From Phascolarctobacterium sp. (GTDB taxonomy: Bacteria; Bacillota; Negativicutes; Acidaminococcales; Acidaminococcaceae): a stretch of DNA of 64,000 nt. Of this stretch, positions 8,142-58,200 are shown piece after piece. The notes beneath the pieces were generated by a model. That model did not search any database, had not been told where the DNA came from, and worked only from the letters and a program-made list of their open reading frames with translations. The stretch is taken from positions 1-64,000 of the forward strand of contig JAFUKD010000006.1 of the NCBI GenBank assembly GCA_017467905.1. Direction: 5' to 3'. The translations under genes were made by a program, and so were the position numbers. Within the stretch, counting starts at the first letter, position 1, and every line of letters begins with the position of its first letter.

Positions 8142-8170
8142 TTGCTCATTAACTGTAAATATGCTATAAT
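8142..8170 (+). promoter_or_regulatory. Probable promoter of the interrupted tRNA-Arg gene
   Basis: TTGCTC (8142-8147), 17-bp spacer, TATAAT (8165-8170), about 50 bp upstream of the tRNA 5' half at 8222. No other good promoter is evident before the intact tRNA at 8401, so this one may drive both. Confidence 0.6.
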
Positions 8171-8221
8171 TCACTTGACTGTTGCGCCTACAGCTTAGGA
8201 CAGCAGCTAATTTTATAGCAT

Positions 8222-8261
8222 CGCCTCTTAGTTTAATGGATAGAACCTACGCCTCCGGAGC
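8222..8261 (+). pseudogene. 5' half of a split tRNA-Arg(CCG) gene; attL
   Basis: Acceptor strand CGCCTCT (8222-8228), a normal D arm and the anticodon 5' strand TACGC, ending in the core GCCTCCGGAGC (8251-8261). After the core the sequence no longer folds as a tRNA. The missing 3' half is found at 48213-48258: acceptor strands CGCCTCT/AGAGGCG and anticodon strands TACGC/GCGTA pair perfectly across the 40-kb gap. This marks the left attachment site of an integrated element. Confidence 0.9.
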
Positions 8262-8345
8262 CGTAGTTGATTTCGCGAAACCTTATTTAGAAATGTAGTC
8301 AGGAAGCCACTTTCAAGACTTACGGCATTTTAACCGACACCCAAA

Positions 8346-8365
8346 TCGTGCAACTTTCGTGCAAC
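8346..8365. repeat. Integrase arm-type repeats, left end
   Basis: TCGTGCAAC at 8346-8354 and again at 8357-8365 (11-bp period, about one helical turn), 85 bp inside the attL core. The same pair occurs near attR. Confidence 0.75.
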
Positions 8366-8400
8366 TCTATCATACATTGTCCTACAACAACTAATATTAT

Positions 8401-8476
8401 GGCCTCGTAGCTTAATGGATAAAGCATTCGCCTCCGGAGCGAAAGACTGACAGTTCGATCCTGTCCGAGGTCACCA
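8401..8476 (+). tRNA. tRNA-Arg (anticodon CCG), complete, CCA encoded
   Basis: Folds fully: acceptor GGCCTCG/CGAGGTC with one G-U pair, D stem GCTT/AAGC, anticodon stem TTCGC/GCGAA around loop CTCCGGA (anticodon CCG, reads CGG), T arm GACAG/CTGTC with TTCGATC, discriminator A and encoded CCA. It is 140 bp inside attL and has the same anticodon as the tRNA gene that integration destroyed, so it is probably an element-borne replacement. It also contains the 11-bp core at 8430-8440. Confidence 0.97.
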
Positions 8477-8487
8477 CTAAAAAATAA

Positions 8488-8526
8488 ACTCCAACACCAA
8501 TGGTTTTTTCACCATAAGTGTTGGAG
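8488..8526. terminator. Bidirectional terminator between tRNA-Arg and integrase
   Basis: Stem ACTCCAACAC...GTGTTGGAG with T-rich tails on both strands. It serves the tRNA on the plus strand and the integrase operon on the minus strand. Confidence 0.8.
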
Positions 8527-8531
8527 ATTTT

Positions 8532-9728
8532 TTATTTTTCTTCATTATTAATAAGCTTATCATAAGCATTAGATACAACTGCCGTACCCTCACGTTGTGA
8601 ATCTTGCAAAGTTCTTAGATAGATATTGGTTGTTGCAATATTTGTATGACCAAGCATATTTTTCACAACATCTAATGGTACTTTATTACTCAAAGCATAT
8701 GTTGCTGCCATTCTACGGAATCCATGAATACCAACGTGCTTGATATCGTGCTTACGCAAAAAACTTCGTAACCAACTGTAGAAAGCCCCTAACGACGGCA
8801 TTTCTACTCTGTCTGTCACCGCCTTTAAAAACACGTAACCTTCAGGATTGGTCAACTGATGTTCAAATAGCCATCTATCTTGATAACGTTTATGCCTCTT
8901 GAATAGCTCCACAACTCTATCATCAATGTAAATAGTTCTATTAGACGTGAATGTTTTAGTATCTTTAACCATGGTTTTACGATCTTTTTCATATGCACCT
9001 TTATTTATTCGAATGCATTTAGCCTCAAAGTCCACGTCATTCCAAGTTAATGCAATATGTTCGCCTCTACGACAACCATCCAGTAAGCTCAGATAACAGA
9101 ACAGCTGGTGTTTAGTATTAGTATGATTATTCTTCAAAGCAAATAGTGCATCAAAAAACCTCTTCATCTCGTTACTCTGCCAAATCTCTGGTTTTGCATA
9201 GATTTTCTTTGGCCTGTCATCATCACTTAATGCAGAACATGGATTGACTGAGATATATCCCCAATCTACGGCCCTATTTAACATATTACGTAATAACTTG
9301 AAAATGTTAAAAATAGTTCCTAAAGACAGGTCTTTATCAAGTCCATCTAAACGCGTTCTTTCTACTTTCAATTCATTGAAGTAATCAGCAATATGCTTGG
9401 TGCTCAACTTCGTTATCCTAATAGCACCAAAGTAAGGAATTAATCTCTTATAAATCCAACGTCTATCACACTCTTGAGAATTTGGTCCAAGCTTCGAAAG
9501 ATGTCTTTCATCAAAAATGCGAGCGAACTCCGCAAAAGTCACTCTGCTATTGATTTGTGCTGGTTTCTTTTGGAATTCACACTCTAACTCAAACGCAATT
9601 TTCTTAGCTGCTCTCAAGGAGCTTGCTTCTATTGTTTTGGTTGCACGGTTAGGTTTACCATCAGCACGAAAGCCATTACTAATAAAAATCCGGTATTTAC
9701 CATTTCCAAGGTCTACTATACTAGCCAT
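8532..9728 (-). CDS. int: Tyrosine-family site-specific integrase
   Basis: 398 residues: an N-terminal arm-binding region, a SAM-like core-binding domain (about 60-170) and a C-terminal catalytic domain. Catalytic residues visible: Arg220 in GCRRGE, His335 and Arg338 in HGFRR, His361 in GHTN, and the nucleophile Tyr370 in NIYLRT. AAGGAG lies 8 bases before the ATG. Its position 55 bp from a tRNA-Arg gene and next to attL fits an integrase using the anticodon-loop region as its crossover. It is last in an operon with the excisionase and replication genes. Confidence 0.97.
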   Translation of the reverse strand: MASIVDLGNGKYRIFISNGFRADGKPNRATKTIEASSLRAAKKIAFELECEFQKKPAQINSRVTFAEFARIFDERHLSKLGPNSQECDRRWIYKRLIPYFGAIRITKLSTKHIADYFNELKVERTRLDGLDKDLSLGTIFNIFKLLRNMLNRAVDWGYISVNPCSALSDDDRPKKIYAKPEIWQSNEMKRFFDALFALKNNHTNTKHQLFCYLSLLDGCRRGEHIALTWNDVDFEAKCIRINKGAYEKDRKTMVKDTKTFTSNRTIYIDDRVVELFKRHKRYQDRWLFEHQLTNPEGYVFLKAVTDRVEMPSLGAFYSWLRSFLRKHDIKHVGIHGFRRMAATYALSNKVPLDVVKNMLGHTNIATTNIYLRTLQDSQREGTAVVSNAYDKLINNEEK

Positions 9729-10492: not shown

Positions 10493-12466
10493 CTAAAAAA
10501 GCATGTCAATATAAATTGCCAGCCAGCGTTCTCGTTTATACTGGCTATTAATTTTGCTTGGAATCATTCGTGTTAGACGTTTACCAGAATCACCCCACGC
10601 AGTGTACCCTTTTCTTTGAAGAGATTCCATCATCTCCTCGCAACTCTTATCAAGGCTCAAACAAGAATCTGAGGCGTATGCCTGTAATTTCTTGTACCAT
10701 TCTGCCTGTTTAACATAAATGATTGTACGTCCCTCTTCAGTGGTTCCTGTTATCGCAATGGTAGTTATATCCAATTGAGGAGCATCAAGAAGCATTTCAC
10801 GCAAGACTTTTATAGTAACGACCTTTATGCCGTCATCATTCAAGCCTTTCCGTAAGAGTTCAAGAAAGAGTTCTTCAGTACAAACGAAGGCCCTCTCCTT
10901 CTCTGCGCCTCCACAATATAAACCTACAGCTTGTCGAGCCATCGCCTCACGGCTTCTTATAAAGGACTCTTCTAATCGCGCCCATTCCTCGAAGTTTGAA
11001 ACAACAGCGTTGATGGCAAGCAGCACTTTCAAGTTACCAACAATACGAGGGTGTGCATTTGGTAGCATTCTAGTTGCTTTTTCAAGGAAATCCTCTTTAT
11101 TCTGCACCAGAAATGCTATCACTTGGGTTTGACATTGATACAGGTAGCGTATGAATGCTACAAAATATCTTTGCATAATCTCAGGACGATTCGTAAATTG
11201 TATTAACTGACTTAATATCAAATCACCCTTTTTAAACCTTATCGTTAAGTGCCGTGCATCAGAGCTTTCTGAGCTAGTAAGCATTCCAGTTTCGGCGGTT
11301 ACAATGCAGACTACTTCAGGCGCTTTAGTAACATCAACACTTTGGCTAAGATTACTTTTTACAACCTGACCTTTATCTGACAGAAAGCGTGTCAACCCTT
11401 CAATGCTTAACCTTGACTTATCGAGATGAACCTGAGAACCAGGAGCTACATCGTCAACGATACAGCTCTCATGTCGATATCCAGCAACAATTCCTTTAAG
11501 GATGCCCTTAGTAGTAGAATTATTGACAGCTATCAGCCGGTTTTCCCAGTCTTGGAATACATTATATAATTCACGACTAACCCCCGTTTTGTAACTCCCA
11601 CTCGGAGCCTCCAAAACTACCAAAAACTCAGGACGCAACCCACATTTTTTTAAAAATGGATACAAATAGCAAGCGTGCGCCGTCAGAAACATTGCTTGAA
11701 TAGCAGGACCATATTGCCCTACAGCCAAGAACTTTGTCCCTTCAATCACTGCATTTGGAATGTCTAGGTCATTCTTCCTAATTACAGAATAGTCACGGTT
11801 TGTAACATATACATCAGGACTAAATGAAGTATGGAAGAAATCCCCTTTTTCATCCTCTATCCAACCTTCTACTAAAGAAACTCTTTTAATTCTCAAGCAT
11901 TCAGCCGTCAAAGCCCGTAGTTCTTGAACATACGCATTAAACGCTGTACGGTTAAGGACTACACACCTACCTTGCTTCTTGGTAATCTCGCTATCGAGTT
12001 TTTCAATCTTCTCCAGGATTACTGACACGTAGAAAAATCTACAGCCTTCCATATTCACCCTAAAGGTAATTGTCTCTGCTTCAAAATCACCATTAGCTAC
12101 TTTCTGAACTTCCCTGATTTCAGTAGGCTGCAACACAAAGTTAGCAATCAACTCACCTTTAGAAGAACCTTTCCCTCTTGTGTAAAGGCAGTTTTGGACC
12201 TCAATCAAAGATAGTTTTTTTACATCTCGTTCATGATACTCTTCGGTATTTGTTATAGCCAAAGGTTTCGTAAAGATGCTACTAGCTAAATAACCATACT
12301 GACTATCTACCTCGTAGCAAGATTGGATAGTATCTGGTCTACCATAGTGATGGTCACTCTGGTCAATACTAGTGTAAACTTGAGCTAGTTGTGTTTTTTT
12401 CAATTCCTCGCTCAAAGTTACTGGTTCTGTAAACAGCATATCATTAGCGATTTCCATGTAAGCCAT
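10493..12466 (-). CDS. DUF927-like replication ATPase/helicase of the element
   Basis: 657 residues from the ATG that has AAAGGGGTGA upstream; an earlier ATG at 12508 would run through a palindromic operator. A P-loop-like EAPSGSYKTG lies near residue 290, with the usual second Gly replaced by Tyr. It is followed by an acidic strand CIVDDVAPG. This layout resembles DUF927-type helicases found next to primases in plasmids and phages. No primase domain is obvious. Likely the element's replication initiator or helicase. Confidence 0.65.
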   Translation of the reverse strand: MAYMEIANDMLFTEPVTLSEELKKTQLAQVYTSIDQSDHHYGRPDTIQSCYEVDSQYGYLASSIFTKPLAITNTEEYHERDVKKLSLIEVQNCLYTRGKGSSKGELIANFVLQPTEIREVQKVANGDFEAETITFRVNMEGCRFFYVSVILEKIEKLDSEITKKQGRCVVLNRTAFNAYVQELRALTAECLRIKRVSLVEGWIEDEKGDFFHTSFSPDVYVTNRDYSVIRKNDLDIPNAVIEGTKFLAVGQYGPAIQAMFLTAHACYLYPFLKKCGLRPEFLVVLEAPSGSYKTGVSRELYNVFQDWENRLIAVNNSTTKGILKGIVAGYRHESCIVDDVAPGSQVHLDKSRLSIEGLTRFLSDKGQVVKSNLSQSVDVTKAPEVVCIVTAETGMLTSSESSDARHLTIRFKKGDLILSQLIQFTNRPEIMQRYFVAFIRYLYQCQTQVIAFLVQNKEDFLEKATRMLPNAHPRIVGNLKVLLAINAVVSNFEEWARLEESFIRSREAMARQAVGLYCGGAEKERAFVCTEELFLELLRKGLNDDGIKVVTIKVLREMLLDAPQLDITTIAITGTTEEGRTIIYVKQAEWYKKLQAYASDSCLSLDKSCEEMMESLQRKGYTAWGDSGKRLTRMIPSKINSQYKRERWLAIYIDMLF

Positions 12467-12489
12467 TGAGTCACCCCTTTCATCGTAAT

Positions 12490-12508
12490 GTGTCGAACAT
12501 ATCGACAC
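12490..12508. promoter_or_regulatory. Palindromic operator upstream of the replication operon
   Basis: GTGTCGA, 5 bp, TCGACAC: a perfect 7-bp inverted repeat 24 bp before the chosen start of the ATPase gene. Probable repressor site; no cognate repressor is identifiable. Confidence 0.5.
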
Positions 12509-12664: not shown

Positions 12665-14308
12665 TTATTCTATGGTGTTTAAGTACGCTTCGATTTCCTC
12701 CCGCGTTTCATTCAAGAAATAATAAACGTACAAATTATCTCTCGTGTACTCCGATGTCCCTTCAACTATTTTTGTAGCATTATTGTATAGACTTAGAAAA
12801 GCATCAGAAAAACATTCTGCTTTAGGAGCGGCTATTATAGGTAATAAAAACTTTAAAATACTACCAACGACATACTTGACATCATAAATCATATACGGCT
12901 CAACTTCTTGAACATTAACCGGCACGTCTTTATCCTTAACCTCTTTTTTGAGCATATTAAAAAATCGCTTCCCAAAATCCTTAGAAGCATCTTTACCTAT
13001 CTGCATCATACAGTAAATTAGTCGCAACAAGATAACACATTCTTTTATACTCACTTTTACCATACCGTTATCAGAATCATAAAAAAGACTAAAATATTTC
13101 AGTGCTCGTTGAGTTTTTTCATTCCGCTCATTCATGAAGGCATACCTTATTAAATCCTTATAAGGTGTCAGTAGTCTTTTTTCCTCATTTATAAAACACC
13201 CATTTTTAGTATCAATCTCTATCTCCCTGGTATCTAACATCAATTGGTCATAAATTTTATTTAATTCATTAAACCTCTTTACATCCTTTTCTTCGCTTAA
13301 ATCTAAGCCTTTTTTTGAAAGAACTTGTAAATATTCCTTTATCCTTCTACTTGCTTCTTTTCTTGTTTCCAGCATCACTTCAATACTTTTACGCCTAAGT
13401 GTTACATAAAATTCAGCAAATACATCCTTTTTATATTCCTCACACATTTGTTCCTTAGCCCTAAGCCAGGCAATTATATCTATAAATAAAATTCTTTGGC
13501 CCACATTTTTTATACCAGGTAACCGTTCTGTAACAGTAGCAGGAAAACTTGGGTTCTCAACCGCATAACAGAACCTACAATCTGATATTCGATTCACCAA
13601 AGGTGAAATTTCCTTTAAGTTTATATATGCACATGCCATTTTCATATAATCACTATATGCCCCTATGTATTGGCCATATGGATTCAACTCGTAGCAATAG
13701 TCATTCGTTTTATCCCTCCACTTGACGCGTTCCGCCTTGTTAAGAACGAGCAGATAATACTTATCTATATTTTCACAAAAATCAAACAACCTGTCATAAT
13801 ATTCGTCAATATTCTTTTTAGTTTCTTCAGTAATCTCTTTCTCTACTTCCTTTCTTAACGCCTCAATTTCATCTATTTTTTTTATCTTTACATCTTTATT
13901 ATCTACAGATGAACCCTTCCAATAACATTTTGCAAGAAATTTAACTATTTTTAATGTCAACTCATCATTTTTGCTTATCCCTTCACTTCCAAATCCAATC
14001 TCATCTCTATCATACTTAGACAACCATCTTTTATAGAAACTTTCTCTATCTACTTTGCCTTTGAATAACCACGAGTTTATTCTATCTATATCATTATCAA
14101 CAAGCTCTTCATCTACAACATCTACATTTTTAGCACTCCAAGCATAAATGATCCTTGCCAAATCCCTTTTAGAAACTTTACTGTACTTACACTCTCCTCC
14201 AAAATCAAAGTCACACTCTAAGGAGTCAATGTCAATTTTTGTTTTACTCTCCCGTCCAATGTCCGAAGGGTTAGTTTCGACCTTTGATGCCCTTGTCCTT
14301 TTCCCCAT
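12665..14308 (-). CDS. Unknown 547-residue charged protein of the mobile element
   Basis: No family recognised. The first 30 residues are polar, then the chain is largely helical and highly charged, with a likely coiled coil at about 145-175 (KKIDEIEALRKEVEKEI) and a second around 300-360. A CRFCYAVENP segment near the middle has two cysteines. No membrane segment or nuclease motif is visible. It is a single gene with its own ribosome site (GGAGGG) and terminator, between the replication operon and a structured noncoding region. That is the kind of slot that often holds accessory or defence genes, but no function can be assigned. Confidence 0.65.
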   Translation of the reverse strand: MGKRTRASKVETNPSDIGRESKTKIDIDSLECDFDFGGECKYSKVSKRDLARIIYAWSAKNVDVVDEELVDNDIDRINSWLFKGKVDRESFYKRWLSKYDRDEIGFGSEGISKNDELTLKIVKFLAKCYWKGSSVDNKDVKIKKIDEIEALRKEVEKEITEETKKNIDEYYDRLFDFCENIDKYYLLVLNKAERVKWRDKTNDYCYELNPYGQYIGAYSDYMKMACAYINLKEISPLVNRISDCRFCYAVENPSFPATVTERLPGIKNVGQRILFIDIIAWLRAKEQMCEEYKKDVFAEFYVTLRRKSIEVMLETRKEASRRIKEYLQVLSKKGLDLSEEKDVKRFNELNKIYDQLMLDTREIEIDTKNGCFINEEKRLLTPYKDLIRYAFMNERNEKTQRALKYFSLFYDSDNGMVKVSIKECVILLRLIYCMMQIGKDASKDFGKRFFNMLKKEVKDKDVPVNVQEVEPYMIYDVKYVVGSILKFLLPIIAAPKAECFSDAFLSLYNNATKIVEGTSEYTRDNLYVYYFLNETREEIEAYLNTIE

Positions 14309-15299: not shown

Positions 15300-15902
15300 C
15301 TATGCAGCTTTATTAGCAAGTTTTTGACAATCTCTACACAATACACGCCCGTATCTATTGTTTGAGAAACTTATCACTCTTGCATCAGTGATAATCGTCC
15401 CACAATCTACACAAGCTTTAGAATTACTAGTTGTCTTTGGTTGGGTAGTAGGTTTAGCTTTTTCAGAAGTTGCTTCATCAGTACCCGTATCCGCTTCTGG
15501 ATCATCACCAGTAGCAATACAAAGACTAAGCATAAAAGCATATTTAATGGCAGCTGTTTGAGCCTTCATAACGGCTTTATCACCTGCATCTTGTCCAGAG
15601 CCAATACCAAATAAATCTACTGATTCTCCTGTGTCGCTATCAATAAGATGTACCTGAACACTGACAGTTGCAAGGTGTTCTTTCTTTTCATTCCGATTCA
15701 ATACTTCAAGCATAGATTCAAGAGTAGGAGATACAATGCTTGCAATGTTGTACTTAGTAAGAGAAGCATTCACTTTTTGAAGCACATCTTCTGCAGTAGC
15801 ATATTTGTAATTATGGTAATCATTTTGACCGTTCTTGATTACATGACTACATTCACTCATAACCTTTACCAATTTCTTTGCGATATTTTTATTTTCCAAC
15901 AT
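15300..15902 (-). CDS. ERF-family single-strand annealing recombinase with zinc ribbon
   Basis: 200 residues. The first ~130 match the ERF family (phage P22-type annealing proteins): KNGQNDYHNYKYATAEDVLQ near the start, then the hallmark GIGSGQDAGDKAVMKAQTAAIKYA and LCIATGDDPE. A Thr/Lys-rich linker leads to a C-terminal CVDCG...CRDC pair, a probable four-cysteine zinc ribbon. AAGGAGG precedes the ATG. Such proteins pair single strands during phage or plasmid recombination. It is cotranscribed with an S6 homologue and two small proteins. Confidence 0.88.
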   Translation of the reverse strand: MLENKNIAKKLVKVMSECSHVIKNGQNDYHNYKYATAEDVLQKVNASLTKYNIASIVSPTLESMLEVLNRNEKKEHLATVSVQVHLIDSDTGESVDLFGIGSGQDAGDKAVMKAQTAAIKYAFMLSLCIATGDDPEADTGTDEATSEKAKPTTQPKTTSNSKACVDCGTIITDARVISFSNNRYGRVLCRDCQKLANKAA

Positions 15903-15911
15903 AGTTCCTCC

Positions 15912-16202
15912 TTAATTATCACTAGGGAAAAGTATGGTTACAATGGTATATTCAACTTTGTTTTCACTCTCTGCCATAATCCAAATCTTTCCCTTGGTCG
16001 TTTCATAAACTGCTAATACTCTATCTTTATATTTAAGAGTATCATTATTTACGATGATATCTTCTGGTGATGTCTCACCAAAGTCTAAACGTAAAAACTT
16101 AGAGGTAGCAGTCATTACTTCCTTACTAAAAGTTTTAGATTCTTTAGTCGCTAAATCAATAGTTTCTGTTTTGCAAATTCTTGCCTTATCAAATGGTCTC
16201 AT
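15912..16202 (-). CDS. Small unknown protein between S6 and ERF
   Basis: 96 residues from the ATG preceded by AAAAGGTGA (a GTG three codons earlier is also possible). It looks like a small beta-rich domain (DRVLAVYETTKGKIWIMAESENKVEYTIVTILF) with no recognised motif. The start region overlaps the S6 stop codon, so translation is probably coupled. ssb usually occupies this position after rpsF, but I see no OB-fold signature, so I do not call it SSB. Confidence 0.65.
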   Translation of the reverse strand: MRPFDKARICKTETIDLATKESKTFSKEVMTATSKFLRLDFGETSPEDIIVNNDTLKYKDRVLAVYETTKGKIWIMAESENKVEYTIVTILFPSDN

Positions 16203-16203
16203 G

Positions 16204-16491
16204 CTATTCACCTTTTCTGATAATCATATGTCGAAGTATTTCATCGGTGCTAATCTTCATAGCTCTGTCAAGTTCATGCACGCACTTCGATTCAGCCAAA
16301 AATGTTACAAGCACATATAATCCTTCCTTTAAATTTTGAATCTCATAGGCAAGACGTTTCTTGCCCCAGCGGTCTACTTTTTCGATGATACCGCCATTAT
16401 TAGTTATCAGTGTGTTGAATTTGCTGACGATGTTTTCAAACGCATCATCTTCCATAGGTTTGACGATATACATAATTTCATAACTTTTCAT
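16204..16491 (-). CDS. rpsF: Ribosomal protein S6 homologue on the mobile element
   Basis: 95 residues, full length for Firmicute S6: MKSYEIMYIVKP start, GGIIEKVDRWGKKRLAYEIQ centre and MKISTDEILRHMIIRKG end. GGAGG lies 8 bases before this ATG; a longer reading to 16518 would include part of the IS end. In chromosomes rpsF is followed by ssb and rpsR; here it is followed by an unknown gene and an ERF annealing protein. It is therefore probably an extra, element-borne copy. An IS200 end lies only ~15 bp upstream, so its original promoter may be lost. Confidence 0.9.
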   Translation of the reverse strand: MKSYEIMYIVKPMEDDAFENIVSKFNTLITNNGGIIEKVDRWGKKRLAYEIQNLKEGLYVLVTFLAESKCVHELDRAMKISTDEILRHMIIRKGE

Positions 16492-16504
16492 TATATTTAC
16501 CTCC

Positions 16505-17222
16505 ATAATCAGCACCACCCGTAAAACGGGTGGTTTGCTCTGAGGTTAGAAACCTCTTATGCCAGCTGAGACTTAAGTCTCACCAAAAATCCTCCAGCTG
16601 CACATTATTTACTAGCTAGCCCCTTAACAGGGGCTACTTTTATTTAATAGTCATTTTTCAAAAGGATCAATCAACTCTTTTAATACCAGTTGGTCGCTCA
16701 TCCTATCTTCTTGCAATTGTTCCGCTATATATTTCTTTATAGCTTTCTCATTGCGTCCTACCGCATCCACAAAATATCCTTTGCACCAAAATCTTCTGTT
16801 GCCATATTTATATTTAAGATTTGCGTGTCGTTCAAATATCTCCAACGAACTTTTGCCTTTCAAATATACTATAAAATCTGATACAGCATATTTAAGCGGA
16901 ATACTCACTAACATATGGATATGGTCAAGGCAGGCAGTCGCCTCCAATATCGTTACACCTTTTCTTGCACATAACTTTCTCAATATTTTACCAATGTCTT
17001 GTTTTATCTTCCCATATATAACCATCCTTCTAAACTTTGGCGCAAACACTATATGATAATTGCATCTCCATTTGTATGTGATAAAGTATTTAAGTCAGAC
17101 ATACTAAAAAGCCTCCTTTGATTTTTATGTGCAGCTGGGGAGCTACACTTATTTTATCAAAGGAGGCTTTACTTCATTTTCATAGCTAGAAGCTTCCTGA
17201 ACCACACGCATAGCGCGTGGTT
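16505..17222 (-). mobile_element. IS200-type insertion sequence, decayed
   Basis: About 720 bp, the usual size for IS200. It contains one Y1 transposase reading frame (frameshifted) flanked by subterminal hairpins: ACCACCCGTAAAACGGGTGGT at the transposase 3' side and CCACACGCATAGCGCGTGG at the 5' side. No tnpB. It lies exactly between element genes and the housekeeping block. End positions are approximate. Confidence 0.8.
16651..17102 (-). pseudogene. tnpA: IS200 transposase TnpA, frameshifted
   Basis: The HUH motif DHIHM and the catalytic Tyr in KAIKKYIAEQ are intact, and the downstream frame FAPKFRRMVIYGKIKQDIG matches IS200 transposases. The N-terminus MSDLNTLSHT begins at 17102 in a different frame. 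One base is missing around 17071-17073 between the conserved Thr and KWRCNYHIV, and the upstream frame then meets a stop. The residual 132-codon frame lacks the N-terminal strand, so transposition is probably lost. Confidence 0.85.
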
Positions 17223-39877: not shown

Positions 39878-40768
39878 TCACGCAGCTTTCAGATTAATTT
39901 CTTTAACCATTTTCCCGTACTCACAATTATCTGCGACTGCACAATAATCTAAGCACTTACGATTCTTCCAACGTTCTTTTACAGTGCATACTGGTGGCAG
40001 ATCCTTTGTTTCCAAGGCTCTTTTCAGACGTTTTGCTTTAGTTTCCATATAAAGCTTAATCCAGTGGTCGGAAATTTTGTTAATGTTGATGATATACAAG
40101 GGACTGGTAATGTTTCGTTCAGCAGCAATACGTAAGCTAAAGTCTCTACAAAACGCTTGTATCTTCATATCCTTGACTTCAAAACCTCTTTGTTCCAATA
40201 GAATACGGTAATAGTTGAGCTGGATTGCCCAGTCTAAAATATGGCGTACACCATCTGTACGCCATTCTTTTTTAGTCTTATGCTGACCCTTTTTCAATCC
40301 TGTTTTGTATACTTCACCAGTAGGAACATCCACTTTGTAATATCCTAATGCTCTCATGAGCTTATAGGAACTAGTGATTTTATAATCACCGAGAGTATTA
40401 TCTCCATAACTAATTATTTGCCCATATAGGTCGAACTTACCGCTGGTTATATCATCAGCCAATCGTTCTTCGCTTAGTATATTCCCATCAGTAAATCCTT
40501 CATTAATGGTATGCACAGCACTACCATGTAAGGCATAGAGTTGTTGCACTGGATCAACTGCATAATCGGTTGTTTTCTTGAGATAGGTTTCCCTCGTACC
40601 ACAAAGAAGTTCAGTGACAGTAGGTTCATCAATCTTTCTATCTAAAGATTTTGCTACAGCTCTAAGGGTGGGAAGAAACATACATCTTTCGCTTCCAACA
40701 CAGTTTTCAAGGCATAAACCTATAGGTATCTTGTTACCACTGGGACAGATAAATTCTGTTGCACCCAT
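39878..40768 (-). CDS. PD-(D/E)XK nuclease with probable Fe-S cysteines (Cas4/RecB-like)
   Basis: 296 residues from the ATG with AAAGGAAG upstream. Nuclease motifs: HGSAVHTI, then FDLYGQI, LGDYKITSS (D-x-K) and a QLNYYRILL helix, the usual H...D...DYK...QxxxY order. Cysteines near the N-terminus (CPSG, CLENC, CMF) and C-terminus (CLDYCAVADNC) resemble the iron-sulfur clamp of Cas4/AddB-type enzymes. Probably the exonuclease partner of an annealing protein such as the ERF at 15300, now 24 kb away. No CRISPR array or cas genes are near. Confidence 0.75.
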   Translation of the reverse strand: MGATEFICPSGNKIPIGLCLENCVGSERCMFLPTLRAVAKSLDRKIDEPTVTELLCGTRETYLKKTTDYAVDPVQQLYALHGSAVHTINEGFTDGNILSEERLADDITSGKFDLYGQIISYGDNTLGDYKITSSYKLMRALGYYKVDVPTGEVYKTGLKKGQHKTKKEWRTDGVRHILDWAIQLNYYRILLEQRGFEVKDMKIQAFCRDFSLRIAAERNITSPLYIININKISDHWIKLYMETKAKRLKRALETKDLPPVCTVKERWKNRKCLDYCAVADNCEYGKMVKEINLKAA

Positions 40769-40784
40769 ACTTAAATACTTCCTT

Positions 40785-41372
40785 TCATTCTTCGCTATAT
40801 TCGTAAAGATTGAAGTAATCATCTTTCTTATCTATAAGCCAGTTCTGCACTCTATCATTTATTTTGTCAACGGAATCATGATTAGAAAATTCCATTGCCG
40901 GAATCTTTTCTCTAAGCACCTCTACAACTTCTTTGAATGTTGAATAGTATTCCATAACATACTCACCATTGATGCAGAAGTCTAAATGATACTGATCTGA
41001 AAAGAATCTTCCCTCGGTATCAGTATTAATGTAAATTTCAAACCCTGGTTCTTCAGAACAATGGACAAAGTTTATTTGATTTTCGAAACGTTCTTGAATA
41101 ATCTTACTGAATACTTCAACATGTGGACTCCAAGCCGTTTCCGTTTGGATGATGAAATAATAAGAAGTATCATCTTTGGCAACGTCGTCAGGCACTTCAA
41201 CAAAGGTATCTCTACCATCTGTAAATTCCACTGCTTCTACTTCGGTATAGCCACATTTAATAACAAAATCACGAATGTATTTGCATTCACCATCCATCAG
41301 CTTTCTTAACAATTCCAATTTATTCAAGTCATTGCCATAGAAGGCAATGCAGTTACTACAATAATTAGCCAT
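40785..41372 (-). CDS. YubB/DUF1281-like ferredoxin-fold protein
   Basis: 195 residues. Opens MANYCSNCIAFYG, the typical start of plasmid-borne YubB-like (DUF1281) proteins of unknown function. Acidic, with AWSPHVEVF and FFSDQYHLDFCINGEYV further on. Seventeen bp upstream of the nuclease gene, in one operon with DUF932. Confidence 0.7.
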   Translation of the reverse strand: MANYCSNCIAFYGNDLNKLELLRKLMDGECKYIRDFVIKCGYTEVEAVEFTDGRDTFVEVPDDVAKDDTSYYFIIQTETAWSPHVEVFSKIIQERFENQINFVHCSEEPGFEIYINTDTEGRFFSDQYHLDFCINGEYVMEYYSTFKEVVEVLREKIPAMEFSNHDSVDKINDRVQNWLIDKKDDYFNLYEYSEE

Positions 41373-41383
41373 AGCCCTTCTCC

Positions 41384-41584
41384 TTATGCAACAAATATAT
41401 TAGTAGTTTCTGCCATTTCAATTACCTTGCCGTAAGAAGCACAGTTTCCATGCTTGGCTTCATTGAAGCTTCTTTCACTCATCTGCATTTCATTCTGCAG
41501 AGCATCTACTGTCATCCGAGCAGTAGTCTCGTCATAAGAATCAACGATAAATACTTTTGTTTCTACAACTTGAAATCTCATCAT
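41384..41584 (-). CDS. Small unknown protein
   Basis: 66 residues from the ATG preceded by GGAGGAATTT. Beta-strand start RFQVVETKVFIVDSYDETTAR followed by a helix. Not recognised. Sits between the DUF932-like and YubB-like genes in the operon. Confidence 0.6.
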   Translation of the reverse strand: MMRFQVVETKVFIVDSYDETTARMTVDALQNEMQMSERSFNEAKHGNCASYGKVIEMAETTNIFVA

Positions 41585-41635
41585 AAATTCCTCCAACAAA
41601 AAACAGGCAACCCAAACGGGTTGCCTATTTACTCT

Positions 41636-42718
41636 TTAAGCTGCCTGTGGGAGCATTAGTATTTTACTTTTGGGTTCAGCTTTATCGACACCTTCATCAA
41701 GAAGCACACCACCAATACGCTCAAGTTCTGTTGCCCTGTTGTAATCTTTTACGTCTTGGGAAGCACGAGTTACTGCATTGACAAGACCGAAGTGAGATAA
41801 ATCTCCACCTTTCATGAAGTGCATAAGAATAGAAGCGTTCTCTTGCCTGTTAAGGATATATCTATCACATAATAGGTCTACAGTTTTGATGGGGTCATCA
41901 CCAGTACTGATGCTTTTAGCCTTACGCATCTTATCTACGGTAAGTTGAAATTTTGCCTCATCTACTGCACAGCTTACAATATCCTGCACTTTCATGAAGT
42001 AAGCCTTGTCATCTGCAGCAAGGGTTGCATCAGAATAAAGTTCATATGCATTATCAGTGTTCTCAATCTGTCTGCCTGTATGATATTTCTTGTGAGAATA
42101 GTCCTTGCTAATCATGCCGTTCTTACATACCAGACGATAAACAAGCGGTTCAATCTTGAGTGCCCCTAAACCAATCTCACTGTTAGAAATGACAAAACCA
42201 GCTTGCACAACATCTCCTGTAGAGATTTCTGCTTTCAAGGTCTTGTTGATTACCTTTAAGTAGAGATGTGTTTCTGTAATGTCTTGGCTGATTACTTCAC
42301 AACCTTTCATCTGTGCTATTACAGGCAGAATATGGTCCACAAGTTCCAGATTATCCAATCTACGGTAACGGTCACTAAGAAATGCTCTAAGCTTCCCATC
42401 TAATGTACGAAGCATACGTTTTTGAGGATTACTCATAAACCAGCAGTTTACGTTCATATCCAGAAGCTGAGGTTGTTCGTTGAGCATTCTCTCATAATAC
42501 TTGAAGGGAATGTTGAGATAATCTGCTAACTGACGATGGGCAATATCAGATACATAGTAAGATAATACATCATTGCCTGTATTAACATTAATAACGCTAT
42601 TGCCTTTAATACTGTTAAAAGTAAGTAGGGAAGTGTCGGCAGACAAATCCTGCCTAGCTTCACGTTGACGGATGAGTTCTTCATAGAGCTTTTCGATACT
42701 TTTGATTCCTTGTTTCAT
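41636..42718 (-). CDS. DUF932/DUF945-like plasmid and phage protein
   Basis: 360 residues from the ATG with AAGGAGATG upstream. Characteristic segments: LADYLNIPFKYYERMLNEQP, LRTLDGKLRAFLSDRYRRLDN and LVCKNGMI. Members occur beside recombination genes on plasmids and integrative elements; the biochemical role is unknown. First gene of the operon ending at 39878, behind a leader with its own hairpins. Confidence 0.8.
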   Translation of the reverse strand: MKQGIKSIEKLYEELIRQREARQDLSADTSLLTFNSIKGNSVINVNTGNDVLSYYVSDIAHRQLADYLNIPFKYYERMLNEQPQLLDMNVNCWFMSNPQKRMLRTLDGKLRAFLSDRYRRLDNLELVDHILPVIAQMKGCEVISQDITETHLYLKVINKTLKAEISTGDVVQAGFVISNSEIGLGALKIEPLVYRLVCKNGMISKDYSHKKYHTGRQIENTDNAYELYSDATLAADDKAYFMKVQDIVSCAVDEAKFQLTVDKMRKAKSISTGDDPIKTVDLLCDRYILNRQENASILMHFMKGGDLSHFGLVNAVTRASQDVKDYNRATELERIGGVLLDEGVDKAEPKSKILMLPQAA

Positions 42719-42804
42719 GATATACATCTCCTTGATTTTAGATTTAGTTTTATATGTAAATAACGCTGGCAGTACTAGCCAGAGTTAGGATTTTAAACAT
42801 AAAA

Positions 42805-46970: not shown

Positions 46971-47483
46971 TTAATGCAATCTATTATATTCTTCTATCAA
47001 ATCTCTATTATCAAGGGATAATATTGGACTTAAACCAAAGTACATTAGTACATATGATGTAGCTCTCTTTATTCTAATCAATTCTCTCTTATCGATATCT
47101 AATTTCCCAACACCATCGTAACAACTAACAGTATTTATTGCGAAGTGAATGTGCTTTTGAGTAGGGTTATCAAGATGAATTCCATAACAAACTTGATAGC
47201 CATTAGGTAATATTTTACACACCTCAAAAGCTATCAACTCCAATTTATTGTCATCCAAAATACAACTTTCGCATTCGCTAAAAGAAATAACTATACTCAA
47301 AAACATTCTGCCATAATTTTTCCCTTGTAAGATTTTTACTAATTCCATTTCTTGTAATGCTATATCTGGATTATCCGACACTCCATACCCACCAAAAACA
47401 GCTTTTTTTTGCACATCTGCCAAATACTTAATTTCCTCATCCAACGTTTTAGGGCTAGATGAATACAATATCAATACTGCCAT
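46971..47483 (-). CDS. Short relaxase-like protein (mobilization)
   Basis: 170 residues from the ATG after GGGGGGATGGAT. It contains GIHLDNPTQKHIHFAINTV, which matches relaxase motif III (H-x-D...H-x-H...N) with its metal-binding histidines, followed by a short basic helix. It is much shorter than usual relaxases and has no helicase or primase tail. A candidate catalytic Tyr lies near the N-terminus (LYSSSP). Immediately downstream of an RHH gene, as in mob operons. Could be a minimal or decayed relaxase. Confidence 0.6.
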   Translation of the reverse strand: MAVLILYSSSPKTLDEEIKYLADVQKKAVFGGYGVSDNPDIALQEMELVKILQGKNYGRMFLSIVISFSECESCILDDNKLELIAFEVCKILPNGYQVCYGIHLDNPTQKHIHFAINTVSCYDGVGKLDIDKRELIRIKRATSYVLMYFGLSPILSLDNRDLIEEYNRLH

Positions 47484-47497
47484 ATCCATCCCCCCAA

Positions 47498-48054: not shown

Positions 48055-48073
48055 TCGTGCAAAATTCGTGCAA
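48055..48073. repeat. Integrase arm-type repeats, right end
   Basis: TCGTGCAA at 48055-48062 and 48066-48073, the same word and 11-bp period as at 8346-8365, in the same orientation, about 140 bp inside the attR core. Confidence 0.75.
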
Positions 48074-48212: not shown

Positions 48213-48258
48213 GCCTCCGGAGCGTAAGATACCAGTTCGATTCTGGTAGAGGCGACCA
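48213..48258 (+). pseudogene. 3' half of the split tRNA-Arg(CCG) gene; attR
   Basis: Begins with the core GCCTCCGGAGC (48213-48223), then GTA of the anticodon 3' strand, variable loop, T arm ACCAG-TTCGATT-CTGGT, acceptor AGAGGCG, discriminator A and CCA. Upstream sequence does not fold as a tRNA. It pairs perfectly with 8222-8261. Confidence 0.9.
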
Positions 48259-48269
48259 TGTAATGACAA

Positions 48270-48308
48270 AACTCCCCGCTGCCTTTCGGTAACGGGGAGT
48301 TCCTTTTT
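48270..48308. terminator. Original tRNA-Arg terminator, also serving guaB
   Basis: AACTCCCCG...CGGGGAGTT followed by CCTTTTT on the plus strand, 12 bp after the tRNA 3' half. It has stayed with the 3' half and lies convergent with guaB. Confidence 0.85.
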
Positions 48309-48322
48309 CAGTTAAGCTTTAA

Positions 48323-49834
48323 TCAACGGGGGAAATCGTTGTTCATATTATCTCTTACAACAACGTCATGTGCTCCGCCTTCAACCAAGGAAGTAGCAGA
48401 AATCAAAGTGATTTTAGCTTTTTGTTGAAGCTCAGGAATATTCAGCGCGCCGCAGTTGCACATAGTAGAACGAACTTTGCTCAAGGACAGGTTAACATTA
48501 TCCTTCAAGCTGCCTGCATAGGGAACGTAGGAGTCAACACCTTCTTCGAAGGAAAGCTTGGAAGCGCCACCCATGTCATAGCGTTGCCAGTTACGCGCAC
48601 GGCTGGAGCCTTCGCCCCAATATTCTTTCATGTAGTTACCATTGATGTTAACCTTTTTAGTCGGGCTTTCGTCAAAACGTGCGAAGTAACGACCAAGCAT
48701 CATAAAGTCAGCACCCATTGCAAGAGCAAGAGTCATGTGGTAATCATATACGATGCCGCCGTCAGAGCAGATGGGTACATAAATACCGGTTTCTTCAAAG
48801 TATTCGTCACGAGCCTTAGCAACATCAATCAAAGCAGTTGCTTGACCGCGACCGATACCTTTTTGTTCGCGGGTAATACAAATGGAACCGCCGCCAATAC
48901 CAACTTTAATGAAGTCAGCACCTGCTTCTGCCAAGAAGCGGAAGCCTTCGGCGTCAACTACGTTGCCTGCACCAACCTTAACACTGTCGCCATAATGTTC
49001 GCGAATCCAGTCCAAGGTAATTTTTTGCCAAGCGCTGTAGCCTTCGGAAGAGTCAATGCACAGTACGTCGCAGCCAGCTTCAACCAAAGCGGGTACACGT
49101 TCAGCATAGTCGCGGGTGTTAATGCCAGCACCTACGATATGGCGTTTTTGGTCATCCAAAAGTTCCAGAGGATATTCTTTGTGAGTAAGATAATCTTTGC
49201 GGAATACCATGTAGAGCAAACGGCCTTCATCATCAATGATGGGCAGAGTGTTCAGCTTGTTTTCCCAAATGATGTCGTTAGCTTCTTGCAGGGTGGTGTC
49301 CTTGCCGGCAACAATCATTTTTTCGATAGGAGTCATGAATTCCTTAACTTTGGTATCCATGCTCATACGGCTGGGGCGATAGTCACGGCTGGTAACGATA
49401 CCTTCCAATTTACCGTTAACAGTGCCATCAGAAGTAACAGCAACGGTGGAGTGACCGGTGCGTTCTTTCAGCGCGATGATATCAGCCAAAGTGCTGTCCG
49501 GACGGATATTGGAATCGCTGCTTACGAAACCTGCGCGATGGCCTTTAACACGAGCAACCATTGCAGCTTCGTCTTCGATGGATTGGGAACCATAGATGAA
49601 GGAAATGCCACCCTCTTTGGAAAGAGCAACAGCAAGTTTCTCACCGGAAACGGATTGCATGATTGCAGATACCATGGGGATATTCATAGTAATGGCAGAT
49701 TGTTCACCTTTTTTGAATTTTACCAGCGGAGTACGCAAATCAACATTAGTGGGAATGCATTTTTCAGAAGAATAACCAGGCACTAAAAGATACTCACTAA
49801 AAGTATGTGCCGGCTCATCATAATAAAAAGCCAT
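48323..49834 (-). CDS. guaB: IMP dehydrogenase
   Basis: Oxidises IMP to XMP. 503 residues from the ATG of [21 protein letters not shown]; a GTG 63 bases upstream (49897) would overlap purD. Two CBS domains (about 100-215) are inserted in the barrel. The catalytic Cys loop is [20 protein letters not shown], and the later flap reads [18 protein letters not shown]. Belongs to the longer ~500-residue group common in anaerobes. Last gene of the purE operon. Confidence 0.95.
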
Positions 49835-49875
49835 CGTCTCATCATCCTTTACTTTAATTTTATATTTTTTATATT

Positions 49876-51153
49876 CTATCTCTTTAGGGCTCTCCACGCA
49901 ATATCTTTTCTATAAAAAACTTTATCAAATTTTATTTTTTCTACAGCAGCATAAGCGCGGTCACGAGCTTCACGAATATTCTTGTCCACAGAGGTTACGC
50001 CAAGCACTCGTCCCCCTGCAGTTACAATCTTGCCATCAGCTAATTTAGTACCTGCGTGGAACACCACAGTAGCTTCATCTGTATTAGCTTCCACCAAACC
50101 GCTAATCTCTTTACCATTTTCATAGCTGCCGGGGTAACCGCCAGAAGCCATTACCACACACACAGCAGCCTTGTCAGACCAGGCTACCTCTACCTCGTCA
50201 AGAGTACCGGTTGCGCAGGCAAGCATAATTTCTGCCAAATCACCATCTAATAAAGGCAGGATAACCTGAGTTTCCGGGTCGCCGAAGCGGCAGTTAAACT
50301 CTACAACCTTCACGCTATCGCCCTTAATCATTAATCCTGCGTACAAGCAGCCCTGATACGGAGTGCCTTCCTCAGCCATGGCAGCAACTACCGGTTTTAA
50401 AATTCTTTCAGTTGCCTTCAAGCGCAGCACGTCAGTCATAACAGGAGCAGGAGCGTAAGTACCCATGCCACCGGTGTTAGGGCCTTCATCATTATCATAA
50501 ACACGCTTATGGTCTTGGGCAGCAATCATGGGTACAACAGTTTTGCCGTCGGTAAAAGCCAACAGGGATGCCTCTTCACCTTCCATGAACTCTTCCAAAA
50601 CAACACGAGCGCCTGCGTTACCAAATTTTTGGTCAGCCATCATCTCGTCAATGGCTTCTAAAGCTTCTTCCTTAGTCATGGCAACCACAACACCTTTGCC
50701 AGCTGCCAAGCCATCAGCCTTAACTACAATGGGAGCTCCCTTTTCTTCAACATAAGCTTTGGCAGTTTCAATGTCCTCGCAAATTTTAAAGAAAGCAGTA
50801 GGGATATCATACTTCGCCATCAATTCTTTAGAAAACGCCTTGGAGCCTTCCAGTTGAGCAGCAGCCTTAGAAGGGCCAAAGACAGGCAAGCCACGACGTT
50901 TGAAAACATCTGCGATGCCTGCTACCAAAGTAGCTTCCGGACCAACAACAGTTAAATCAATACCATTGTCCTCTGCGTAGTCGGCAACCTTTTCCAAATC
51001 ATCTAAATTCAAAGCAATACATTGGCATTTAGGGAGTTCGGCAATACCAGGATTACCCGGCGCCGCAAAAATATTTTCAACCTTGGTGCTTTGTGCCAGC
51101 TTCCACGCCAGTGCGTGTTCGCGACCGCCACCACCAATCAATAAAATCTTCAT
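49876..51153 (-). CDS. purD: Phosphoribosylamine-glycine ligase
   Basis: Second step of purine synthesis. 425 residues: [20 protein letters not shown] start, ATP-grasp core with [16 protein letters not shown] and [27 protein letters not shown] precedes the ATG. About 180 bp of noncoding spacer separates it from purH. Confidence 0.98.
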
Positions 51154-56943: not shown

Positions 56944-58200
56944 TTATCCTCTAACCTGACCATTACCGTTAATCAAATACTTGGTACTTGTCAATTCCGG
57001 TAACGCCATAGGTCCACGAGCGTGTAATTTTTGGGTGCTAATACCAATTTCTGCACCAAATCCAAATTCAAAGCCATCAGTAAAGCGAGTGGAAGCATTT
57101 ACATAAACGGCAGCAGCATCCACGCCTAACTGGAAGATGCGCGCGTTCTCGTAATCTTCCGTTACGATGCACTCGCTGTGATAGGTGGTGTACTTGGCAA
57201 TGTGCTCCATTGCTTCCTCCAGGCTATCCACAATCTTTACAGAAAGACGCAGGTCACCATATTCGGTGCTCCAATCTTCTTCCGTTACGGGTACAACCTT
57301 GTTGCTAAAGCCTTGCACTCTTTCGTCACCACGAATCTCTACGCCAGCTTCAAAATATTTCTCCAACATAGGAGGCAGGAACTTTTCAGCAGCATCCTTA
57401 TGGACAAGCAAGGTTTCCATTGCATTGCATACGGAGGGGCGCTGCACCTTGGCGTTGTAGCAAATCTTCACTGCCATTTCTACATCAGCAGAAGCATCTA
57501 CAAAAGTATGGCACACTCCTGCGCCGGTTTCTATCACAGGAACGGTAGCGTTCATCACTACAGTTTTTATAAGCCCTGCGCCGCCGCGGGGAATAACTAC
57601 GTCCACCAAGCCGTTCATGTGAATTAAATCATTAACTGCTTGGCGGTCACTGGTATCTACAAACTGTACACTGCCTTTCGGAATGCCAACTGCTTCCGCA
57701 GCTTCGGAAAGTACTTTGGCAATGGTAAGGTTGGACTGCATTGCTTCACTGCCACCCTTTAAGATTACAGCGTTACCACTTTTAAGGCACAAGCCTACAG
57801 CATCCGCAGTAACATTAGGGCGCGCTTCGTAAATAATGCCAATAACCCCCAAGGGCACACGCACCTTGGTAATGCTCAAGCCATTTGCCAGACGGCTACC
57901 GCCTACAACATTACCAATGGGGTCAGGCAGAGCAGCAACCTGCTCCAAGCCTTCTGCCATTCCGGCAATGCGTTCCGGTGTCAGCTTTAATCTATCCAGC
58001 ATGGAAGCCTTCATGCCTTTAGCGGCAGCAGCCTCCATATCCAGGGCATTCGCTGCCAAAATCTCTTCCTGTTTATCCAATAGGGCTTGCGCCATTGCCA
58101 GCATTGCCCTGTTCTTTACAGCAGTACCGGTGATGGCGAGCTTAGAAGCTGCCTGTTTGGCAGCAGTTGCCTTTGCTTTAACTAATTCATAAGTAGACAT
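56944..58200 (-). CDS. proA: Gamma-glutamyl phosphate reductase
   Basis: Second step of proline synthesis. 418 residues from the ATG with GAGGGTGAAG upstream. Catalytic Cys in QRPSVCNAMETLLV; NAD(P)-site GLCLKSGNAVILKGGSEA; C-terminal EFGFGAEIGISTQKLHARGP. Downstream of proB with an 11-bp gap. Confidence 0.98.
   Translation of the reverse strand: MSTYELVKAKATAAKQAASKLAITGTAVKNRAMLAMAQALLDKQEEILAANALDMEAAAAKGMKASMLDRLKLTPERIAGMAEGLEQVAALPDPIGNVVGGSRLANGLSITKVRVPLGVIGIIYEARPNVTADAVGLCLKSGNAVILKGGSEAMQSNLTIAKVLSEAAEAVGIPKGSVQFVDTSDRQAVNDLIHMNGLVDVVIPRGGAGLIKTVVMNATVPVIETGAGVCHTFVDASADVEMAVKICYNAKVQRPSVCNAMETLLVHKDAAEKFLPPMLEKYFEAGVEIRGDERVQGFSNKVVPVTEEDWSTEYGDLRLSVKIVDSLEEAMEHIAKYTTYHSECIVTEDYENARIFQLGVDAAAVYVNASTRFTDGFEFGFGAEIGISTQKLHARGPMALPELTSTKYLINGNGQVRG

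Follow-up and report, generated by a model that had tools for sequence, protein, structure and literature searches.

A mobile element in Phascolarctobacterium that splits the host tRNA-Arg(CCG) gene and carries a complete replacement, probably served by the host tRNA promoter

Organization of the locus

The window, i.e., the whole 64,000-nucleotide stretch that was analysed, corresponds to contig C9 of a 1.84-Mb Phascolarctobacterium assembly of 41 contigs. The features at the two ends of the element are as follows.

8142–8170, plus strand: host tRNA promoter, TTGCTC-N17-(TGC)TATAAT, with an extended -10 element (sequence; graded score; relatives)
8184–8207, plus strand: probable decayed 5' end of an ancestral native tRNA-Arg(CCG) (alignment to the native gene; position in relatives)
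8222–8261, plus strand: 5' part of the host tRNA-Arg(CCG), ending in the core; together with 48224–48258 it makes the full tRNA
8251–8261, plus strand: attL core, GCCTCCGGAGC
8347–8364, plus strand: likely paired arm-type integrase sites, CGTGCAACTTTCGTGCAA
8401–8476, plus strand: complete replacement tRNA-Arg(CCG) with encoded CCA (ARAGORN; Rfam RF00005, 66.1 bits; cloverleaf fold)
8489–8540, no strand assigned: strong hairpin and T tract, a terminator separating the tRNA from the integrase gene (-22.7 kcal/mol, z -6.0)
8532–9728, minus strand: tyrosine integrase, 398 aa, convergent with the tRNA (PF00589, 5.7e-20; phrog_1 integrase)
48056–48073, plus strand: likely paired arm-type sites, CGTGCAAAATTCGTGCAA
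48213–48258, plus strand: attR, with the core and the displaced 3' half of the cut tRNA-Arg(CCG)

The 11-bp core GCCTCCGGAGC is present in three copies, at 8251–8261, at 8430–8440 within the whole tRNA-Arg(CCG), and at 48213–48223, with a chance expectation of 0.36 matches when up to one mismatch is allowed. The copy at 48213 marks the right junction: the missing 3' half, GTAAGATACCAGTTCGATTCTGGTAGAGGCGACCA, starts there and pairs perfectly with the 5' half. When 8222–8261 and 48224–48258 are joined, they form a 75-base gene with a perfectly paired acceptor stem, in which the core occupies the anticodon loop. The joined tRNA is 84% identical in local alignment to the intact tRNA-Arg(CCG) of a congener (G001). 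An 11-bp core does not suffice to restore the gene, and the host tRNA is therefore destroyed at both junctions. Neither ARAGORN nor Rfam RF00005 reports a tRNA at 8222 or 48213, in agreement with the initial annotation, which had described the cut gene as unrestored.

A paired motif, CGTGCAANNTTCGTGCAA, occurs exactly twice in the 64 kb, once inside each junction, and not at all in 100 shuffles. These pairs are likely the arm sites of the convergent tyrosine integrase.

The replacement tRNA and the arginine tRNA set

The same annotation had placed a complete, different tRNA-Arg(CCG) 140 bp inside attL, in the orientation of the host gene and with a copy of the core of its own. All of this was borne out, with a gap of 139 bp between the core and the tRNA. 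It had also proposed a census of CCG genes. Intact arginine tRNAs with the anticodons ACG, TCT, CCT, and CCG were found in the genome, one gene each, and the sole intact CCG gene found is that of the element. The census combined 46 genome-wide RF00005 matches, ARAGORN on fetched regions, and targeted searches, in an assembly that is incomplete for tRNAs (no Ile or Tyr tRNA was seen). With one intact CCG gene in this incomplete assembly, no backup copy of the cut host tRNA was found. Across 59 genomes of the family, the CCG pattern was found at one place in 45, at two in 4, and at none in 10.

The CGG codon is rare in host genes (3/7841) and commoner in the element (9/3418). Under the decoding rules, none of the other listed tRNAs should read CGG; therefore, the CCG tRNA gene should be needed despite the low demand. 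Of the four arginine isoacceptors that were found, two (CCG and CCT) now come from mobile elements. The origin of the replacement tRNA was not found among viral contigs or phage matches: its core stretch has no exact match in the viral contigs, and the best phage match, a Streptomyces phage tRNA-Arg (80% over 61 nt), is uninformative.

Promoter and terminator

The promoter that the initial annotation had assigned to the old gene is present, with TTGCTC at 8142–8147, a 17-nt spacer, and TGC before TATAAT at 8165–8170. A TATAAT box immediately preceded by TG is also conserved in relatives, upstream of their tRNA-Arg(CCG). A strict promoter scan returned nothing and missed even this host promoter; therefore, we used a graded sigma-70 consensus score over the 110 bases before each tRNA and compared it with shuffles. 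Such consensus scoring can miss weak or unusual promoters. Six host CCG promoters scored 8.8–13.2, with a fraction of shuffles at least as good of 0.03 or less, and all have the form TG-N-TATAAT. None of six replacement-tRNA leaders exceeded the shuffles (fraction at least as good 0.27–0.75). The leader in the window is not above chance, as expected from the earlier remark that no separate promoter is clear there. No clear promoter precedes the native tRNA-Arg(CCT) genes either, and the contrast therefore depends on the CCG locus. The native tRNA-Arg(CCT) closely follows a gene, and read-through from that gene would also serve the CCT elements.

In the circular form of the element, no promoter above chance was detected within 478 bases upstream of its tRNA. 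The 139-base leader has no unusual or terminator-like fold (z 0.15). As judged from the sequence, the element appears to carry a cassette of tRNA and terminator with no evident promoter, placed behind the host promoter. Because the leaders score at chance and the host promoters above it, and because a terminator is found only after the tRNA, the element tRNA likely uses the host tRNA promoter.

Alternatively, the replacement scheme may hold while the element tRNA is transcribed from a promoter of its own, its place behind the host promoter being incidental. There is a precedent in mycobacteriophage Fionnbharth, whose tRNA overlaps a protein-coding gene and has a strong promoter of its own (PMC10865867), and the leader of one related element (G013) contains a fair candidate, TTGCAC-N16-TATATT (fraction of shuffles at least as good 0.27). 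However, the scores of the six leaders stay at the shuffle level and those of the six host promoters do not, and the orientation and place of the replacement tRNA behind the host gene are constant in all elements found. We regard a separate promoter as possible but rather unlikely.

Related elements share the layout

Relatives of the integrase were gathered from whole genomes, and the other loci were screened by script. A common layout, consisting of a cut tRNA, integrase arm sites, a whole tRNA with the same anticodon, a terminator, and a convergent integrase, is found in independent elements. This comparison of elements with similar integrases, which had also been proposed at the outset, gave four further cases. 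An element in another genus (G013:C27, L028) carries the layout with CCG, has an integrase 50% identical to that of the window, and lies at the same AI-2E flank. A second element in the source genome (G000:C28) has it with CCT and an integrase of 43% identity, and its displaced 3' half is found on contig C40. The joined halves of this cut tRNA are identical to the intact tRNA-Arg(CCT) of two congeners (G002 and G003). The two others, both with CCT, are in a congener (G001:C68) and in the isolate Succiniclasticum ruminis DSM 9236 of the Acidaminococcaceae (G061:C34).

The anticodons of the cut and element tRNAs match in each type (CCG/CCG and CCT/CCT). The shared core is 11 bp in the window element, approximately 15 bp in the CCT element of the same genome, and 19 bp in S. 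ruminis. All four replacement integrases that were tested group in a single clade (support 100/99). A search of genome and viral contigs, covering approximately 150 distant integrase loci, did not find the replacement layout outside this close clade. In one of the related loci (L030, G004:C2, at approximately locus base 1240–1290), an integrase of 34% identity lies beside an apparent cut 5' half of tRNA-Gly(CCC), with no replacement tRNA near it.

For the nearest sister integrases, at tRNA-Arg(TCT) in G071 and G065, the layout is classic and the arm sites lie on the far side of the tRNA, and at another locus (G074:C13/C5) a tRNA-Arg(CCT) is restored via a long shared block. By analogy with the two TCT cases, 8401–8476 might be the host gene, restored from element sequence, and the fragment at 8222 an unrelated relic. 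However, the 3' half at 48213 makes a full gene with the 8222 fragment and not with the gene at 8401, and the perfect acceptor stem and the 84% identity to the congener tRNA belong to this joined gene. We rejected classic restoration as very improbable, since the joined halves yield the 8222 gene.

Gene content of the element and the host block

The other main features between the junctions are as follows.

15300–16518, minus strand: ERF-type recombinase (15300–15902) and ribosomal protein S6-like gene (16204–16518) (homologues in related elements)
16651–17049, minus strand: IS200-like transposase at the left junction of the host block (PF01797, 4.8e-30)
17272–39830, minus strand: host block carB-carA-purF-pyrG-guaA-purC-amt-glnA-pst-pho-purA-purB (cluster in three other species of the genus)
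39878–42727, minus strand: element genes, namely an exonuclease-like gene, an unknown gene, and a DUF932 gene (adjoining the ERF/S6 module in related elements)
46971–47489, minus strand: MobA/VirD2-like relaxase domain protein, 172 aa (PF03432, 8.8e-12)

Further element genes encode a Fic protein and a Y-family polymerase. The joint presence of an integrase and a short relaxase-domain protein is a feature of integrative mobilizable elements, and in S. ruminis a relaxase and a NikA-like protein are encoded close to the integrase gene of the element. No phage structural family (terminase, portal, capsid, or tail) was found among the element-specific genes scanned, several of whose proteins have no family. 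Two long proteins (10493–12508, 671 aa; 12665–14308, 547 aa) have no Pfam, PHROG, NCBIfam, or PADLOC family and no convincing sequence relative in the PDB. The S6-like gene lies beside the ERF recombinase and the exonuclease, and its homologues occupy the same place in G001:C26 and G000:C40. ARAGORN reports a tRNA-Ala(GGC) at 57842–57925 on the minus strand, within an open reading frame; it is not reported by the Rfam tRNA model and is probably a false positive.

The 22.6-kb block of host nucleotide and nitrogen operons lies within the att-bounded stretch, and in two congeners (G001 and G002) it is located away from the tRNA-Arg(CCG) locus. Full-length guaA was found only in this block. The gene on the right side of the block and the S6/ERF module on the left side lie next to each other in the G001 element, and a similar order is seen in G074. 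The presence of the block inside the stretch may reflect rearrangement, capture, or misassembly. A plain 40-kb prophage was rejected because of the host operons at 17.3–39.8 kb and the failure to find phage structural genes; mobile purine cargo was also rejected, as the same cluster is present in three congeners.

The number of contigs, together with the host block and IS200 within the att-bounded stretch, raises the question of whether the whole arrangement is an artefact of a fragmented assembly. The attL layout occurs in several genomes, including that of the isolate S. ruminis DSM 9236, which makes an artefact highly improbable. Since the attL layout recurs in other genomes, the question of the host block leaves attL unaffected.

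Empty sites and the history of the host tRNA

A single intact tRNA-Arg(CCG) follows the AI-2E transporter gene in three genomes of the same genus (G001, G002, and G003) and in two others (G004 and G074). Two tRNA genes side by side at the uninterrupted locus, the finding that the initial annotation had named as fatal to its proposal, were thus not seen. An ancestral host with two adjacent tRNA-Arg(CCG) genes, of which the element cut one, is the least probable of the readings considered and was rejected: the distance of only 139 bp between the genes would suit it, but the locus has one gene in three congeners and in other genera, the arm-type sites sit between the two genes, and the layout is seen again with CCT.

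Native tRNA-Arg(CCG) genes of the sampled genera share approximately 80–95% identity. Identity to the native gene falls to approximately 57–81% for the replacement genes, the cut gene of the window, and the G001 gene. With this low identity, the cut gene of the window is not of the native type, and it is probably itself an earlier replacement. Upstream of it, GCGCCTACAGCTTAGGACAGCAGC (8184–8207) aligns to the native GCGCCTGTAGCTCAGTGGATAGAGC (shuffle p approximately 0.004) and lies at the position where the native gene starts in relatives. G074 contains a decayed native 5' half (0 of 5000 shuffles as good), together with an arm-like stretch and an entire replacement tRNA. No close integrase lies beside this tRNA, and the element appears to have been lost with its replacement tRNA retained. 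Read most simply, these remnants point to repeated replacement of the host tRNA.

Directly to the right of attR (48259–49897) lies guaB. In the congeners, a TonB-receptor region follows tRNA-Arg(CCG), and guaB is followed by a transporter gene. Because guaB is not the flank of the congeners, the locus to the right of attR has also been rearranged, with a chromosomal breakpoint at the tRNA.

Proposed mechanism

We hold with good confidence that the locus is explained by tRNA-dependent integration of a mobile, probably mobilizable, element. The integrase would recombine at the 11-bp core in the anticodon loop, splitting the host tRNA-Arg(CCG) so that both junctions become non-functional. The loss is made good by the element's own whole tRNA-Arg(CCG) inside attL. 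In the integrated state, the host tRNA promoter most likely reads through, giving one transcript of 5' fragment, leader, and tRNA, because the two genes have the same orientation, no own promoter is detectable, and a terminator is present after but not before the replacement. Ordinary tRNA-processing enzymes would then cut the replacement tRNA out of this transcript. In the free element, the replacement tRNA would be silent. Because the replacement gene contains the core, it may become the next target, and the remnants point to successive replacements of the host tRNA in this way. Opinion could fall evenly on either side of a wider proposal: that replacement tRNAs in mobilizable elements of the Acidaminococcaceae are promoterless and on only behind a host promoter, that replacement is serial, and that some host tRNAs are domesticated element genes.

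Comparison with known systems

The element resembles classic tRNA-restoring islands (Islander; the sublocations of Williams) in its tyrosine integrase, its anticodon-loop site, and an integrase gene adjoining the tRNA; the integrase relatives in G071, G065, and G074 show that classic layout. The attP of those islands carries the 3' part of the tRNA, whereas the window element shares only 11 bp. Prophages and islands of Sinorhizobium meliloti likewise provide an isoacceptor, nearer to those of other species, in place of a host tRNA that has been inactivated; the hosts and tRNAs are different, and the authors found no evidence of new tRNAs becoming integration sites (PMC11476347). Lactobacillus johnsonii prophage Lj965 is cited as a case without tRNA rebuilding in which the cognate tRNA is encoded (PMC10865867); its annotated tRNAs lie in mid-genome (12.8–13.4 kb), far from the integrase gene, in contrast to the present element.

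The closest likeness is to the tRNA-dependent lysogeny of mycobacteriophages described by Guerrero-Bustamante and Hatfull in 2024, where integration at a core of 8–17 bp destroys the host tRNA and, as demonstrated at the bench, the phage has to supply a tRNA of the same isotype (PMC10865867). These authors also suggested tandem integration with the introduced tRNA as target, and posed as a question how far such lysogeny reaches beyond actinobacteriophages (PMC10865867). The window element shares with Fionnbharth, LeBron, and Gaia a tyrosine integrase, a short core, the lack of a tRNA at the junctions, an element tRNA with the same anticodon, and the lack of a backup. Those are temperate phages, whereas the elements described here have a relaxase and no recognised phage structural genes. 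The tRNA of the window element lies between the attP arm sites and the integrase gene and is apparently promoterless, unlike that of Fionnbharth, and the target is tRNA-Arg(CCG/CCT) in a Negativicute. The element thus appears to work like tRNA-dependent lysogeny, with the molecular features that were tested; lysogeny in the strict sense would require the element to be a phage.

The arrangement suggests a way in which a function needed by the host becomes linked to the integrated state of an element that pays nothing for it when free, and the remnants form a sequence record of tRNA turnover. A clear and recurrent case in Negativicutes, with elements that are not phage-like, indicates that the principle concerns integration rather than phage life.
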